Positions 2,482 through 17,506 of a DNA stretch of 21,772 nucleotides are shown piece after piece (the stretch's first letter is position 1; every line of letters begins with the position of its first letter). The DNA is from a virus. The position numbers and the translations under genes are program-made. The notes under the pieces are model-generated. The model made no database searches, was not told the DNA's origin, and saw only the letters and a list, made by a program, of their open reading frames with translations. Where the stretch lies: positions 1 to 21,772 of the IMG/VR virus record IMGVR_UViG_3300034109_000923; one strand, 5' to 3'.

Positions 2482-2508
2482 GTAAACCCTTATCGGATAA
2501 GGCTTTAC
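2482..2508. promoter_or_regulatory. 27-base dyad, possible operator
   Basis: GTAAA-C-CCTTATC and GATAAGG-C-TTTAC surround one central base: 12 of 13 positions pair. It lies about 45 bases upstream of the TATAAT at 2431-2436. A transcription-factor site or other protein-binding dyad fits; no protein is identified. Confidence 0.45.
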
Positions 2509-2561
2509 GTCGATTCTAAAATTCTAAAATTCTCCCTTGGACATTTAGTTTTTGGGAATCG

Positions 2562-2687
2562 TCTCAATTTGAGACAATTCTGCGGTTCGATGCAAACCGT
2601 ATGCCAAACCCAAAAAATTCTACCAAGATTCTCAAATTGAGACAAGTGCAAATTCTGTACCAAACCCAAAAGATTCTCAAATTGAGA
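2562..2687. repeat. Three copies of a 13-bp palindrome (TCTCAAWTTGAGA)
   Basis: The copies are at 2562-2574 (TCTCAATTTGAGA), 2630-2642 and 2675-2687 (both TCTCAAATTGAGA). The last two share a 19-base identity, each extending to AAGATTCTCAAATTGAGAC. The phrase CCAAACCCAAAA also recurs at 2604-2615 and 2660-2671, so the unit is larger than the palindrome. Centre spacings are 68 and 45 bases. Three matching dyads in a gene-free region suggest repressor operators or replication iterons. Confidence 0.8.
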
Positions 2688-2724
2688 CGACTGCCAGAAT
2701 GACAGCCGACTGCCAGAATGACAG
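2688..2724. repeat. 19-bp tandem repeat, two copies
   Basis: CGACTGCCAGAATGACAG occurs at 2688-2705 and 2707-2724. Each copy holds an imperfect dyad, CTGCCA and TGACAG around GAA. It abuts the third 13-bp palindrome. Confidence 0.8.
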
Positions 2725-2729
2725 TCGAA

Positions 2730-2812
2730 GGGTGTACTAGCACACCCGTACACCCGATACCCCTCTACAGGGGGGGGTGAGTGTACTAGCTGACCAGTAC
2801 ACCCGCACTCAC
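2730..2812. repeat. Two hairpins with GTGTAC/GTACAC stems
   Basis: The first has GGGTGTAC (2730-2737) pairing with GTACACCC (2748-2755). The second has GTGTAC (2781-2786) pairing with GTACAC (2797-2802), with outer GTGAG/CTCAC arms. Both have 10-base loops starting TAGC. A palindromic TACACGTGTA follows at 2839-2848. No T run follows, so these look like binding or structural sites rather than terminators. Confidence 0.6.
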
Positions 2813-2854
2813 ACACAACAGCCTACCCCACACCCAGGTACACGTGTAAGACGA

Positions 2855-3012
2855 CTTTGGGGTTTTTTTATTTGGAAAATTTCCCGTACGAGGCCGGCCA
2901 CTGGGTTTTTTTGTGGAAAGTTTTTCCCGTACGAGAGGCCGTCTTGGGTTTTTTTAATTGAGAAAAAAGTTGTATGATTTCTCCCGTACGAGGCCCAATT
3001 GTGGGTTTTTTC
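2855..3012. repeat. Imperfect direct repeats: CCCGTACGAG and GGGTTTTTT
   Basis: CCCGTACGAG occurs at 2883-2892, 2926-2935 and 2983-2992, each followed by (AG)GGCC and then TGGGTTTTTT. A TGGGGTTTTTTT also precedes the first copy, giving four T-tract elements. The spacing is irregular (43 and 57 bases). Minus-strand ORFs running through here show the repeat as a protein pattern, but no real gene is evident. Only the last unit (CCCA-ATTG-TGGG before T6) could fold as a mini-terminator on the plus strand. Confidence 0.7.
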
Positions 3013-3100
3013 TGGGGGAGGAATTGGAGAATTATTGGCTATCATAGAAGATATAGAAGGACGGTTGTTGACGATTGTTGTTGCTAACGAAACGGGTGAG

Positions 3101-6406: not shown

Positions 6407-7174
6407 TTAACACTCCGCATAAACAATAACCCAACGACCATCGACTTCCACAGCAACAATGTTCTTGTTAGCTCCCACGGCAACAGTAGTGCTACGGTTG
6501 TGTCCCGTAAGTTGTACTGCTGTATTATTCCATCCACCACCGGACGGAACTTGTAAATAAAATGGGCCACTACCACCAGCACCAATAGCATTGATTGATC
6601 GACCGCACACACTAGATCGCAGTCTCCTAGTGAGGGAGACTAGAACGTGTGACTTAGATGGATCAAGTGTACCGATGATTTCTGCTCTACCAAACAGGTT
6701 GTATGTTAACGATCCGTTAACAATGTCAATTCCCCGATAGGTGGCGAAGTTAGCTCCTGGGAGAGTTCCTGATAGTTTGAGGAACGATACTCCGGTGAGA
6801 AGGACTGGTGCTGCCTGGGTTGCTGTAATAAGTCCGAGAGCGATACCCCAATGAGGAAGCCAACCATGAGTAGGACTAGAGAACTGAGAAAGTTTATCCA
6901 CGTATACAGTCGGGACATTTTGTGTTTCCTGGGGGAGTGATGGATTGTTGGTGTCGTAGGGTGCAATAGGTTGAGTGATAAGAACAGGTTCATAAGGTTC
7001 AATTACATCTGTCCTACCAGTTTCGATTTGTCCGTAGACTTTAACCGATTCGTTTTGAATGGAGACTGAGTCCACTACCATGGATGCTGGTTGTTGACGA
7101 GTAAGTTCGTTGATAAACTTACTTGTGATTACTTCTCGGAAGGGTGTTCCTGGGTGGACTGCTCGTCTAGGCAT
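6407..7174 (-). CDS. Phage tail-module protein of unknown function, 255 aa
   Basis: Not recognised. The first 100 residues are polar with many Pro, Thr and Gln. The middle has a hydrophobic, Ala/Leu-rich part (HWGIALGLITATQAAPVLLT, about 108-127). The C-terminus is Gly-rich and beta-like, with a GAGGSGPFYLQ segment and a final VEVDGRWVIVYAEC that resembles closing strands of phage fibre or capsid-like folds. The start codon overlaps the previous stop as TAATG. Position between a 373-aa putative baseplate protein and the Cys-rich protein suggests a tail-tip component. Confidence 0.55.
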   Translation of the reverse strand: MPRRAVHPGTPFREVITSKFINELTRQQPASMVVDSVSIQNESVKVYGQIETGRTDVIEPYEPVLITQPIAPYDTNNPSLPQETQNVPTVYVDKLSQFSSPTHGWLPHWGIALGLITATQAAPVLLTGVSFLKLSGTLPGANFATYRGIDIVNGSLTYNLFGRAEIIGTLDPSKSHVLVSLTRRLRSSVCGRSINAIGAGGSGPFYLQVPSGGGWNNTAVQLTGHNRSTTVAVGANKNIVAVEVDGRWVIVYAEC

Positions 7175-11500: not shown

Positions 11501-11727
11501 AGCATTTGATCTTCAAACGAAGTAAAGTCTTTAATGGTTCCACGAACAGCTAAGCCAGTAACAAATAAGCCACCAGCAGCACTTGTGGATAGGTTGCGGA
11601 GAGAACGAGAGGCTTTCATAATCTGAGAGGACAAGCCGCTGGTTAGCTTGCTGAACTGCATCGTTGCACGATCAGTAAGTTCTACAACGATAACTGCTTT
11701 ACCTGCTTGAATACTTTGGCGACTCAT
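8578..11727 (-). CDS. Tail tape measure protein, TP901 type, 1049 aa
   Basis: Tape measure proteins set tail length and fill the tube. Residues about 70-350 match the TP901-type core: 'FEDQM', 'TTAYTSKEVADAAVSLAQAG', 'MLANVVRTFNMFG' and 'MSESGLKASLAGTSLNTAL'. A hydrophobic stretch at about 397-430 and a second around 650-710 are possible membrane-inserting segments, typical of the family. The middle is Ala/Gln/Lys-rich and probably coiled. The C-terminus has a collagen-like GSPGMPGAPG run, then Gln-rich helix. The ATG overlaps the stop of the frameshifted chaperone frame (TAATG), with AAGGA 8 bases upstream. Its size predicts a long flexible tail. Confidence 0.9.
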   Translation of the reverse strand: MSRQSIQAGKAVIVVELTDRATMQFSKLTSGLSSQIMKASRSLRNLSTSAAGGLFVTGLAVRGTIKDFTSFEDQMLNLTVKLGYFGNLTQEQTNNIAGLRSTIMQLGRTTAYTSKEVADAAVSLAQAGFSVDEIKGSLQGTLDFARGTGYALGESADMLANVVRTFNMFGENDSLETRMNTITNVTSQMVKATRLGTIEIQDLRESLKYASGTAGNLGIKLPVLLGFLVQMSESGLKASLAGTSLNTALLNMIKSSDKLRQTFPTFKISTDAQGNEDLLTTMYELFNLTKNMSRIQKAELFGDIFNIRGARAVSSVQEIERVEKFIESIRLAGAESRLAAAKMEEGPGGAVRRLTSAFETLKITIGKLVEGEFLALFNMGAYIVTLFEEWLKKNKLLAATFLSLPVIFAGTMVGALTLSFALSRLALVIRGLTAAGKGLRSLGGLMGTSLLNLSKALTPGKRPPSQIAIQMAAYKKQQQKVAKLQQAVDIAMAKAQAGKTPAGAAAAMQRVAQGKRMRSLISGTTKLSEMKRQIAARQNAVTSFSALRAAVGERLQTRQETKFYKNRQKGYNLHAAQMARQYRFQSTLAAAAQARGANPAPYAQAAAGYKQRMLASRKSASLAGGLAKKSQMTGMMQGLGVIGRTAAVSGKGILTLGIGFLKLTASITRFVFSWNFVGMIFNILLLFGDKIPAVVNAFKALGAGISGAFGELGKVATYAGPAMNLFKLAFSAFQQGEAGVGVQALQTGFMGLVDIIKNQLVAAWNTFLVHVEYMWIVLRKIFEGLKVIFMSIFEGVSKTLGVMASPIMSSIGDIFGAMNGGAGGGGMASMATTIVKGIDMFITGFFKGIISLTETLQTFLADFQSVIGQIISRIPGTGQAGAAIQADAAATRSVAEMRASSARGALETERKQRAKQLEQIMAISPQEVAKQRAAEAARANDRSASTSFRMDQAYEGLIGALDMKLKERAKAMDQLQQGSPGMPGAPGRATPGEQMQQELPKFLQALTGSAMSTRAILRTDTKKQEDLLKEQVAQQQETNRILSLQGGIG

Positions 11728-12364
11728 TAGTAATTTCCTTTCGCAACCATTCCTTCAACTGCTGCTCTTAACTGTGCTGCACCAGAACCTTTAGCTTTGC
11801 TTCGGCTCTTGATTCTCTGGGGGAGGAGTTCATTGCTTTGTGCTGAACATGCCCAATTGATTTGGTCTCGTTCACTAGCAATCAACTCGATGTACATGAT
11901 TTCTCCAAGAGTCTTGGAGTTTATGTCGATTCCTCTGGATTCTGCTCTGAAAGCGACCTCGATGATTTGTCCATATCGAGACTCAACTGTTTCATCTCTC
12001 GTTTCAGCACCTTCCAGATTTCCAGCAAGACCCCCTTCTTCTGGGGGCTTGAAAAATTTACGATGGCACTCCAGAATGTTTCTCGGAAGTTTTCGATAGC
12101 TTCTGGTTCACTGTCGAGTAGTTCGAGAAACTTGTCCCAATCGTAAGTAACTTGTGATTCAAGGAAGAACCAGCACAGTCGAAGTGCAAGGTCATCGTCG
12201 ACTAGGATGCGGTGAGTTGTTGCCTGGGTGAGTTGTTCATCTACAAACAACTTGAGGATTTCGATGTTGAACTTTTCTGGGAGAGTGTTGTACGCCAATG
12301 ACCACGTGATGACGATTGGATACGATTTCTCATTGAACGAAAACTTGCTGACGGTCTTAGACAT
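11727..12364 (-). CDS. Tail assembly chaperone, -1 frameshift product (GT-type), 212 aa
   Basis: Translation starts at 12364 and follows the 147-aa frame for 104 codons to the heptamer AAATTTT at 12053-12059 (zero frame A-AAT-TTT). It then moves to the -1 frame, which stays open for 108 codons and stops at TAA 11729-11727, overlapping the tape-measure ATG. The -1 extension begins FKPPEEGG and contains YGQIIEVAFRAESRG and YIELIASERDQINWA, credible protein rather than noise. Five bases after the heptamer, CCCCC (12047-12043) can pair with GGGGG (12035-12031) around a 7-base loop. Gene order, overlap and ratio control match lambda G/GT, where the long form recruits the tape measure and tail tube. 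The heptamer differs from lambda's GGGAAAG. Confidence 0.82.
11921..12364 (-). CDS. Tail assembly chaperone, unshifted product (G-type), 147 aa
   Basis: This is the short chaperone form, sharing residues 1-104 with the frameshift product. The N-terminus, 'FSFNEKSYPIVITWSLAYNTLPE', is a strand pair, followed by a mostly helical region rich in Trp, Leu and acidic residues, as in siphovirus chaperones upstream of the tape measure. Its own C-terminal tail after the slip site (SSPQKKG to NPEEST) is Lys/Glu/Ser-rich. It is expected to be non-structural and absent from virions. Two hairpins lie in the 148 bases upstream, a sensible way to lower its output relative to the tail tube gene. Confidence 0.78.
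   Translation of the reverse strand: MSKTVSKFSFNEKSYPIVITWSLAYNTLPEKFNIEILKLFVDEQLTQATTHRILVDDDLALRLCWFFLESQVTYDWDKFLELLDSEPEAIENFRETFWSAIVNFSSPQKKGVLLEIWKVLKREMKQLSLDMDKSSRSLSEQNPEEST
12031..12059 (-). promoter_or_regulatory. Programmed -1 ribosomal frameshift signal
   Basis: The slippery heptamer AAATTTT is at 12053-12059, in frame as A-AAT-TTT. The spacer is TCAAG, then a 5-bp C5/G5 stem with loop AGAAGAA. The stem can extend by CAAG/CTTG (12048-12051 and 12026-12029) past a bulged T at 12030. Confidence 0.8.
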
Positions 12365-15361: not shown

Positions 15362-17506
15362 TTAGCCGTTAGCTCGGAGAACAGCTTCTCGTTCTCGTTC
15401 GTTGATTTCGATGTCCCAGAAACCACGAGTACCGACACCCAGCATGTTGGCTGGAAGATCGACAGCTTCGATGGTTGGTCGTCGTTGACCTCGCAAGTAG
15501 GTGATGCTGTATGGGCTGAATCGTTGCGACTTCGGCCACAGCAACCAGGTGTTCTCACTGACGAAGGTTCCAGTTCCCAACAAGCTGCTGTTGCTCATCT
15601 GGGGGAACGTGATCTGGTCGAGCTTACCAAACCAGTAGTTTGCTTCACCAGTCTTGGATGGACTTGCTGCACCAGTTTCCTGGACGATTCGGGATTGCCT
15701 GAGCAATTCGAAAGCAGTTTCTTCCCCAGTGATCGAGGTAATGAGAACCCAACGATCGTTGATGAGGTTGACAAAGTTCTTGCCACGATTTTCGTTGTAC
15801 TGACGTACAGCGTTGTAAGCCGTTGAAAGGTTTGCTCGGTTAAGTGCCAAGCTTTGTCGGCTGTTATCAGCATCGACCCAGAACGAGTTAGCTGCTGCTG
15901 CTTTGACAAGCATCAACTTGCCGAGCTTCATATCTGGAACGATCAATGCACCTTCGACCATCGCATCGAGCATGTCAGCAATCACACCCATATCGTCGTT
16001 GATGATGTCCTCACGATTGAACACAACCAACTGAGCCGAAGTCGAGAGCTTGGATCGATATTCGGTTTCCTTGCCGAACTCGGTTTCTTCGATTTTACCG
16101 TCGTTCTTCATTTCATCCCAAATCTTACCGCCACCTGGACGGATTCTCTGGGTGATCCGGAAGTCCTTGTTGGATTCTTCCTTGAGGTATTGAACTGCAA
16201 ACGGGGTGTTGATTGCCCATCGTTCTTCCAACATCATGCTCGTAACCTTCTTGAGAAGGTTTGGCATATCGATCATGGAGAATCCACTGTTGTTGATTCC
16301 CAAGAACGATTGTTGGGTTGAGGTCTTGATGGTGCTGCACAAAATGTCAACGTCACTGAAACCAGTGAATCGTCGTTGACGTTCGGTGCTGTTGGCCAAG
16401 TTGACCAAGGTTTCAACAAAGCTCCAACGAGATCCGATCATGCAGTTGTCAAGAACTTTCTTGTCGACGTGCTTGGAAATCGTTTCTGGGGAGATATTGC
16501 AAGATAATGCGAACTGTGCAACGATTTCGTCACTTGCCGACGATCGTTGTTGTGGTGTGAGGTTTGGAACTTGTGGAAGTCCGTTCTCAAAGAGTTTCAG
16601 CTTGATGCTGTTTTCGATAGCGGTGAGATCCGTACCAGCAGCATATTGAGTCTCGATGGACTCTGCATGGTCAGGATACGAATTCATCAGTCGAGCCATA
16701 CGAGCAAATTCTGCACGACCTACAACAGGGGCTGCAGGAGCAGGTGGAACAACAGGAGTCGTAGGAGCTGCGTTCTGTAGAGGAGCCGCAGGGGGAGCTG
16801 GTGGAACAGCAGGAGCTGCTGGGGCTGCTGGTGGTACAGCAGGAGGAGCAGGAGGAACATCAGGAGTGGAGTTTTTCAAAAGCATTTGTGCTTCCTTATT
16901 CAAGAGACCGAAGTTTGTGTCCGAATCACGACCAGACATCGTGATTGTCATTTCTTTGAGGATGGAACGTTCAGCAACGTACATTGGCCCCGTTACTTCA
17001 CGATTGTTGATAGTACGTTTAACTCCGTGTTTCAGGAACATAATATCTTCTTTGTTAGTGATTCGAAGCCCCATACTGGCTTCGAAAGGAAAACCGTTTG
17101 CCAAGGCTTCTGTCACAGTGTCTCTGGCTGTGGATGGGTAAGAACCCACACCTTCACCACTGACACTTGAATTTGTCTTGACTATCGAGGTCGAGTGACC
17201 AATTGGTTCCCAATGTTCAAACAAGAGTGGGATGGAGTTTTTGTGTTCCATACCACTAATGTTGTAAATCATCGGATATTCGTAACCGTAGTCTCGGAGA
17301 CTAACGGGTTGTCCAGAGTAACCAGCAAACGAGAACTTGACTAGCCCGTTCTCGTCTTTTCCTGGGGAGGAGGCTGGTGTAGCTAGATTGAAGATTGCTT
17401 CACCTTCAACTGGCTTGTAGGAGACTGGAGCAGGAGTGGGTGTACTATTGTGGATAGTACGGTCTCTTGCAGACTTGATAGCTTCGAGTCGTTTACTGAG
17501 TTTCAT
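15362..17506 (-). CDS. Prohead protease fused to major capsid protein, 714 aa
   Basis: Residues about 30-200 look like a phage prohead protease: His98 in 'LLFEHWEPIGHS', Ser144 in 'GFPFEASMGL', and a 'GPMYVAERSILKEMTIT' strand. H98 and S144 fit the His/Ser pair of that class. A Pro/Ala-rich linker spans about 213-262. The rest (about 320-714) is a major-capsid-like domain: 'RFTGFSDVDIL', 'FGKETEYRSKLSTSAQLVVFNREDIINDD', 'NSFWVDADNSRQSLALNRANL', ending in a beta-rich 'RGFWDIEINERER'. The protease presumably releases itself during head maturation. There is no separate scaffold gene. The start overlaps the portal end by 14 bases; GAGG lies upstream. Confidence 0.82.
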   Translation of the reverse strand: MKLSKRLEAIKSARDRTIHNSTPTPAPVSYKPVEGEAIFNLATPASSPGKDENGLVKFSFAGYSGQPVSLRDYGYEYPMIYNISGMEHKNSIPLLFEHWEPIGHSTSIVKTNSSVSGEGVGSYPSTARDTVTEALANGFPFEASMGLRITNKEDIMFLKHGVKRTINNREVTGPMYVAERSILKEMTITMSGRDSDTNFGLLNKEAQMLLKNSTPDVPPAPPAVPPAAPAAPAVPPAPPAAPLQNAAPTTPVVPPAPAAPVVGRAEFARMARLMNSYPDHAESIETQYAAGTDLTAIENSIKLKLFENGLPQVPNLTPQQRSSASDEIVAQFALSCNISPETISKHVDKKVLDNCMIGSRWSFVETLVNLANSTERQRRFTGFSDVDILCSTIKTSTQQSFLGINNSGFSMIDMPNLLKKVTSMMLEERWAINTPFAVQYLKEESNKDFRITQRIRPGGGKIWDEMKNDGKIEETEFGKETEYRSKLSTSAQLVVFNREDIINDDMGVIADMLDAMVEGALIVPDMKLGKLMLVKAAAANSFWVDADNSRQSLALNRANLSTAYNAVRQYNENRGKNFVNLINDRWVLITSITGEETAFELLRQSRIVQETGAASPSKTGEANYWFGKLDQITFPQMSNSSLLGTGTFVSENTWLLWPKSQRFSPYSITYLRGQRRPTIEAVDLPANMLGVGTRGFWDIEINEREREAVLRANG
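16719..16869 (-). repeat. Pro/Ala linker coded by GCA/GGA-type repeats
   Basis: A low-complexity stretch of alternating Pro and Ala codons encodes the flexible linker between protease and capsid domains. It also creates open but false frames on the plus strand. Confidence 0.7.

Follow-up and report, generated by a model that had tools for sequence, protein, structure and literature searches.

Background

Does a small tail gene of an uncultivated phage encode one protein or, by a one-base backward slip of the ribosome within it, two? Slippage into the -1 frame that yields a longer tail assembly helper protein has long been known from phage lambda. The stretch analyzed here (the window) comprises 21,772 bases and is a single metagenomic IMG/VR virus record from an uncultivated tailed phage whose structural genes are encoded on the minus strand. 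A preliminary description of the window had proposed a programmed frameshift at an AAATTTT heptamer in the gene preceding the tape-measure gene.

Here we examine this proposal by comparing the locus with its relatives, and we put at roughly 93 % the probability that it encodes a G/GT-type tail assembly chaperone pair through -1 programmed ribosomal frameshifting. Sequence and comparison together demonstrate a frameshift signal, its conservation and selection acting on both reading frames.

Results

Organization of the locus

The gene in question (12364-11921, minus strand, as are all features of the locus) encodes a 147-aa protein that we call a G-like tail assembly chaperone on the basis of its open reading frame, its relatives, purifying selection and weak fold matches. 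It sits directly upstream of the gene for the tail length tape-measure protein (11727-8578, 1049 aa), which is identified by PHROG tape-measure families (best 4.9e-35) and by Pfam PhageMin_Tail (3.7e-29). Preceding it is a 277-aa gene (13346-12513) at the place where a major tail protein gene would be expected; this gene is assigned by position, is kept as a neighbor in relatives and has no PHROG or Pfam match.

The heptamer A_AAT_TTT (12059-12053) lies across codons 102-104, in the context GTA-AAT-TTT-TCA of codons 102-105, which is the phase for tandem -1 slippage. It is followed by the 5-nt spacer TCAAG (12052-12048) and by a putative stimulatory hairpin (12047-12031), seen in the consensus fold and in single-strand folds, which is composed of CCCCC (12047-12043), a 7-nt AGAAGAA loop and GGGGG (12035-12031). 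The -1 frame extension (12053-11727), which we call T-like, holds 108 sense codons (12053-11730) and a TAA (11729-11727) whose last base is the first base of the tape-measure ATG at 11727. From the heptamer to the 0-frame stop, 129 nt (12052-11924) would thus be dual-coding, and stops are avoided there in both frames. The predicted slipped product consists of 104 residues of G and 108 of the extension, a GT-like protein of 212 aa.

These elements are as the preliminary description had given them: AAATTTT in the correct frame (on the minus strand, no strand having been named), a 5-base spacer, a C5/G5 stem and a 108-codon -1 frame whose stop overlaps the tape-measure start, by one shared base. 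The one amendment concerns the extent of the stem, which may exceed C5/G5.

The bare string AAATTTT is not rare, occurring 4 times in the window where 6.4 are expected, and the case is carried by phase, extension and conservation. Heptamers of the form XXXYYYZ occur in frame 8 times in the main genes of the window, which total 6,047 codons; in two of these eight Y is A or T and Z is not G, and the -1 frames that they open run for 108 codons at this locus versus 11 at the other.

Conservation in relatives

The 0-frame protein and the -1 protein, each used as a query of its own, retrieved the identical set of 13 IMG/VR contigs, in which the 0-frame product shows 63-90% identity. All 14 close sequences (these contigs and the window) carry an identical AAATTTT at the same codons, and in every one the -1 frame is open, over a length of 104-108 codons. 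Queries with the tape-measure and tail-protein genes, which are independent of the chaperone gene, added 5 contigs spanning the locus. AAATTTT is exact in three of these more distant contigs (L036, L037 and L038). The two most distant, L058 and L059, read GTT CTT TTT TCC at the same place, where slipperiness is confined to T_TTT, the A-site part; a 9-bp stem comes after this T run, and they still carry a homologous -1 extension. Across relatives the extension has invariant residues, and the adjacency of the chaperone gene to the tape-measure gene holds in those examined. The frameshift arrangement is not a chance one, because the comparison with relatives shows it to be conserved.

The neighborhood of the gene varies in some relatives. 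A staphylococcal-nuclease-like gene lies between the tail-protein and chaperone genes in L037 (4030-4350; Pfam SNase 1.6e-08) and L038 (3987-4307), and a different extra ORF occupies this place in L007 (4562-5020). In L037 (4331-4520) and L038 (4288-4477) the chaperone frame also extends 5' of its first ATG with homologous-looking sequence, and translation probably begins there at a codon other than ATG (VAKEIVRYK...).

Selection on both reading frames

Codons 102, 103 and 104 show zero synonymous differences among 11 distinct sequences; in codons 1-98, such silent invariance is found in 3 of the 32 degenerate columns whose amino acid is invariant. Ahead of the site the 0-frame evolves with a dN/dS of 0.14 (codons 1-101). 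Past the 0-frame stop, the -1 frame has a dN/dS of about 0.18 and 0 stops in the 11 sequences, against 1.4 and 1.7 in the other two frames of the same region, with 38 and 43 stops.

Within the overlap, synonymous shuffling predicts about three -1 stops per sequence and none is found in any sequence. A stop-free -1 overlap has a probability of 0.02-0.06 per sequence by this shuffling, values that are not independent of one another because the sequences are related. Changes that create a -1 stop occur at 0.29 of expectation inside the overlap versus 1.77 upstream, and the 0-frame itself is less tightly constrained within this stretch (pN/pS 0.45 vs. 0.30).

A putative downstream stem that differs between lineages

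Frameshift signals are judged here by a downstream structure about 5-9 nt from the heptamer, and the C5/G5 stem of the window begins 5 nt after it. The RNAalifold consensus places the C/G stem immediately after the spacer, in an alignment of close relatives with few sequence changes and without double compensatory changes in the stem pairs. A longer stem is possible, in which CAAG (12051-12048) pairs with CTTG (12029-12026) as CAAG/CUUG past a bulged U. In the window the stability of the stem region is ordinary over 60 nt (z -0.64) and ranks within roughly the top 2% when the gene is scanned window by window. In each of the sequences the folding energy of this region falls within the most stable fifth of gene windows, and several sequences have it close to the top. 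Single-sequence folding energies do not alone prove the stem, and their z-scores are modest.

In L003, the G5 arm is lost to GGGAA and C5 can pair with a later GGGGG, giving 9 bp. The predicted stem of L037 is GCCCACAA/UUGUGGGC and that of L058 is UCCCCAACU/AGUUGGGGA, with 9 bp. Across lineages the stems start about 5-6 nt past the slip site despite unrelated stem sequences, and this apparent replacement of the stem between lineages is more telling than the fold of the close relatives.

Two further elements were sought by eye and rejected. Loop bases could pair just 3' of the stem, but there is no space for the crossing loop of a pseudoknot, and a GGAG that could act as a conserved Shine-Dalgarno-like upstream stimulator occurs in some sequences only.

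A separate, very stable hairpin (12468-12405, z -6.8) occupies the gap that separates the G-like gene from the putative major tail protein gene. It recurs in L002, L003 and L005 (z -4.7, -4.9 and -6.5), where the stem of L005 differs in sequence and retains its pairing, and was not seen in L006. This hairpin may serve in RNA processing or attenuation and in this way set how much tail protein is made relative to chaperone.

Identity of the proteins

Searches of PHROG and Pfam with both products, whole alignments included, gave no match. Distant blastn against the phage collection and tblastn with the most divergent relative found no named relative, a sequence search of solved structures gave no match, and scans of bacterial and archaeal genomes found no host. 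The structure model of G (mean pLDDT 83) includes a predicted helix at residues 107-137. It has no fold match in the PDB and has weak matches in BFVD (best E 0.04, TM 0.4-0.5), several of the top ones being annotated as tail assembly chaperones. The extension modeled by itself is of low confidence (mean pLDDT 65.5) and was left out of the fold search. The name "tail assembly chaperone" thus draws on weak fold similarity and on the order of the genes, and sequence homology plays no part in it. A sequence match to a known chaperone family is not required for it, known pairs often being dissimilar. Common descent with lambda G/T is unsupported, because there is no sequence match and the fold similarity is weak.

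Other features of the window and its relatives

In L021 the tape-measure frame breaks at residue 480 (6950-7075) near a GCCCCAAAAAGGCCC stretch where relatives read on, possibly through an indel or an assembly error. A 714-aa protein of the window (15362-17506) matches head maturation protease and "major head and protease protein" PHROGs, carries Pfam Phage_capsid_4 in its C-terminal half and has an Ala/Pro-rich linker whose coding DNA contains a 30-bp tandem repeat (16781-16856); it may be a protease fused to the major capsid protein. The region 2505-3050 of the window holds no convincing gene and has a 19-bp tandem repeat at 2688-2728.

Discussion

The reading of this locus as a -1 programmed frameshift, as first proposed, is supported and alone accounts together for an invariant heptamer, suppressed synonymous change, purifying selection on the -1 frame, a stop-free overlap, the lack of a conserved start codon from which the extension could be made by itself, and stems at the same spacing in lineages whose stem sequences are unrelated. 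The -1 frame had been called protein-like from its translation, and its conservation and low dN/dS past the 0-frame stop agree.

The -1 frame could instead be a separate gene with its own start codon. An ATG does stand at -1 codon 53 (11897), and the window, L002 and L003 have a GGAG ahead of it. That GGAG is present in only 3 of the 14 sequences, however, the ATG is missing from L007, L036, L037 and L058, no start is common to all, and in the window no earlier one follows the slip in the -1 frame. An independent start would also leave both the invariant heptamer codons and the openness of the -1 frame upstream of the ATG unexplained, and we consider it very improbable. It is slightly less probable still that the slip takes place in transcription, by a polymerase on a run of T. 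The site holds A3T5, and L058 and L059 hold T6, but L037 and L038 have only T4 and keep the phase of the heptamer exactly, and this phase, like a stem at ribosomal spacing, fits slippage by the ribosome. Short T runs slip poorly in bacterial transcription.

That the window is one metagenomic virus record leaves room for a sequencing or assembly error that split one gene, or for a chance overlap; yet the same frame relation is found in 13 other contigs and in 5 more distant ones, and stops close the other frames. An assembly artefact is excluded because the frame relation recurs, and the probability left to error or chance is negligible. A last alternative accepts the frameshift and gives the proteins another job in tail morphogenesis. 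The products have no sequence family match and their fold matches are weak, which would allow such a role; the place of the gene beside the tape measure in the relatives analyzed, size, frameshift architecture and chaperone-annotated fold matches speak against it, and we regard it as improbable, if less so than the other three.

For a frameshifted chaperone pair, we infer that ribosomes slip, how efficiently they do so and that the products act as chaperones, and the sequence of events would be as follows. Translation of 12364-11921 would in most cases end at the stop of the gene and yield the 147-aa G-like protein. A smaller share of the ribosomes would pause at the hairpin, which lies about 5 nt further on, and move back by one base on A_AAT_TTT; tRNA-Asn would let go of AAU and pair with AAA, tRNA-Phe would exchange one UUU for another, and 108 more codons would then be read to give the 212-aa GT-like protein. 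By analogy, the pair would work like the lambda G/GT system: many G and few GT would coat the tape measure, and the major tail protein would be recruited through the T part. In lambda, binding to the tape measure is a property of G and binding to the tail protein one of T (review PMC5009743).

The locus resembles lambda G/GT in its gene order of tail protein, G, T and tape measure (V-G-T-H in the lambda record), with the 277-aa gene placed as tail protein by position, and in a -1 XXXYYYZ heptamer by which T is made, here by prediction, as a fusion to G. In the lambda record, G has 140 aa, the heptamer GGGAAAG lies at codons 133-135 of 140 and the -1 extension has 144 residues. The heptamer here is A_AAT_TTT instead, the shift falls at codon 104 of 147 rather than near 134 of 140, a simple hairpin is predicted, and searches with the window proteins found no sequence similarity to any family. 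The locus is also like the dsDNA phage chaperones of Xu et al. 2004 and PRFect (PMC10885494), in which the -1 frameshift is conserved though sequences are dissimilar. With 129 nt from slip to stop it is mildly unusual, in contrast to means of 36 nt in the Xu set and 26 nt in SEA-PHAGES (PMC10885494).

Since the shift precedes the 0-frame stop by 129 nt, the long product would lack the last 43 residues of G (105-147), the predicted helix included. We tentatively suggest, as a possibility that we hold somewhat short of even, that frameshifting swaps the conserved C-terminal helix of G for T, so that G and GT would have mutually exclusive C-termini, separate roles and a long dual-coding stretch.

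The preliminary description fairly considered AAATTTT less usual than the lambda site; to call it weak would be wrong by the rules known for E. coli. Motifs of the H_HH.U_UU.Y class, A_AAU_UUU included, ranked among the most efficient when assayed in that bacterium, and U_UU.Y tetramers shift given a strong stimulator (PMC4066793). These assays used IS3/IS911 stimulators. A text search of the literature for AAATTTT with phage and frameshift had as its sole match another gene in a Wolbachia phage and, with subscription papers largely outside its coverage, is no gauge of rarity.

Conclusions

The locus adds a well-supported, probable frameshifted tail chaperone from an uncultivated phage group for which searches of the phage collection gave no related G gene. 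It shows that divergent phages can retain a heptamer not of the lambda type and yet build the stimulatory stem anew from other sequences. PRFect failures have been reported where a long distance separates slip site and 0-frame stop (PMC10885494), and distance-based predictors would for this reason tend to miss the locus. Annotation of such phages should join both frames.
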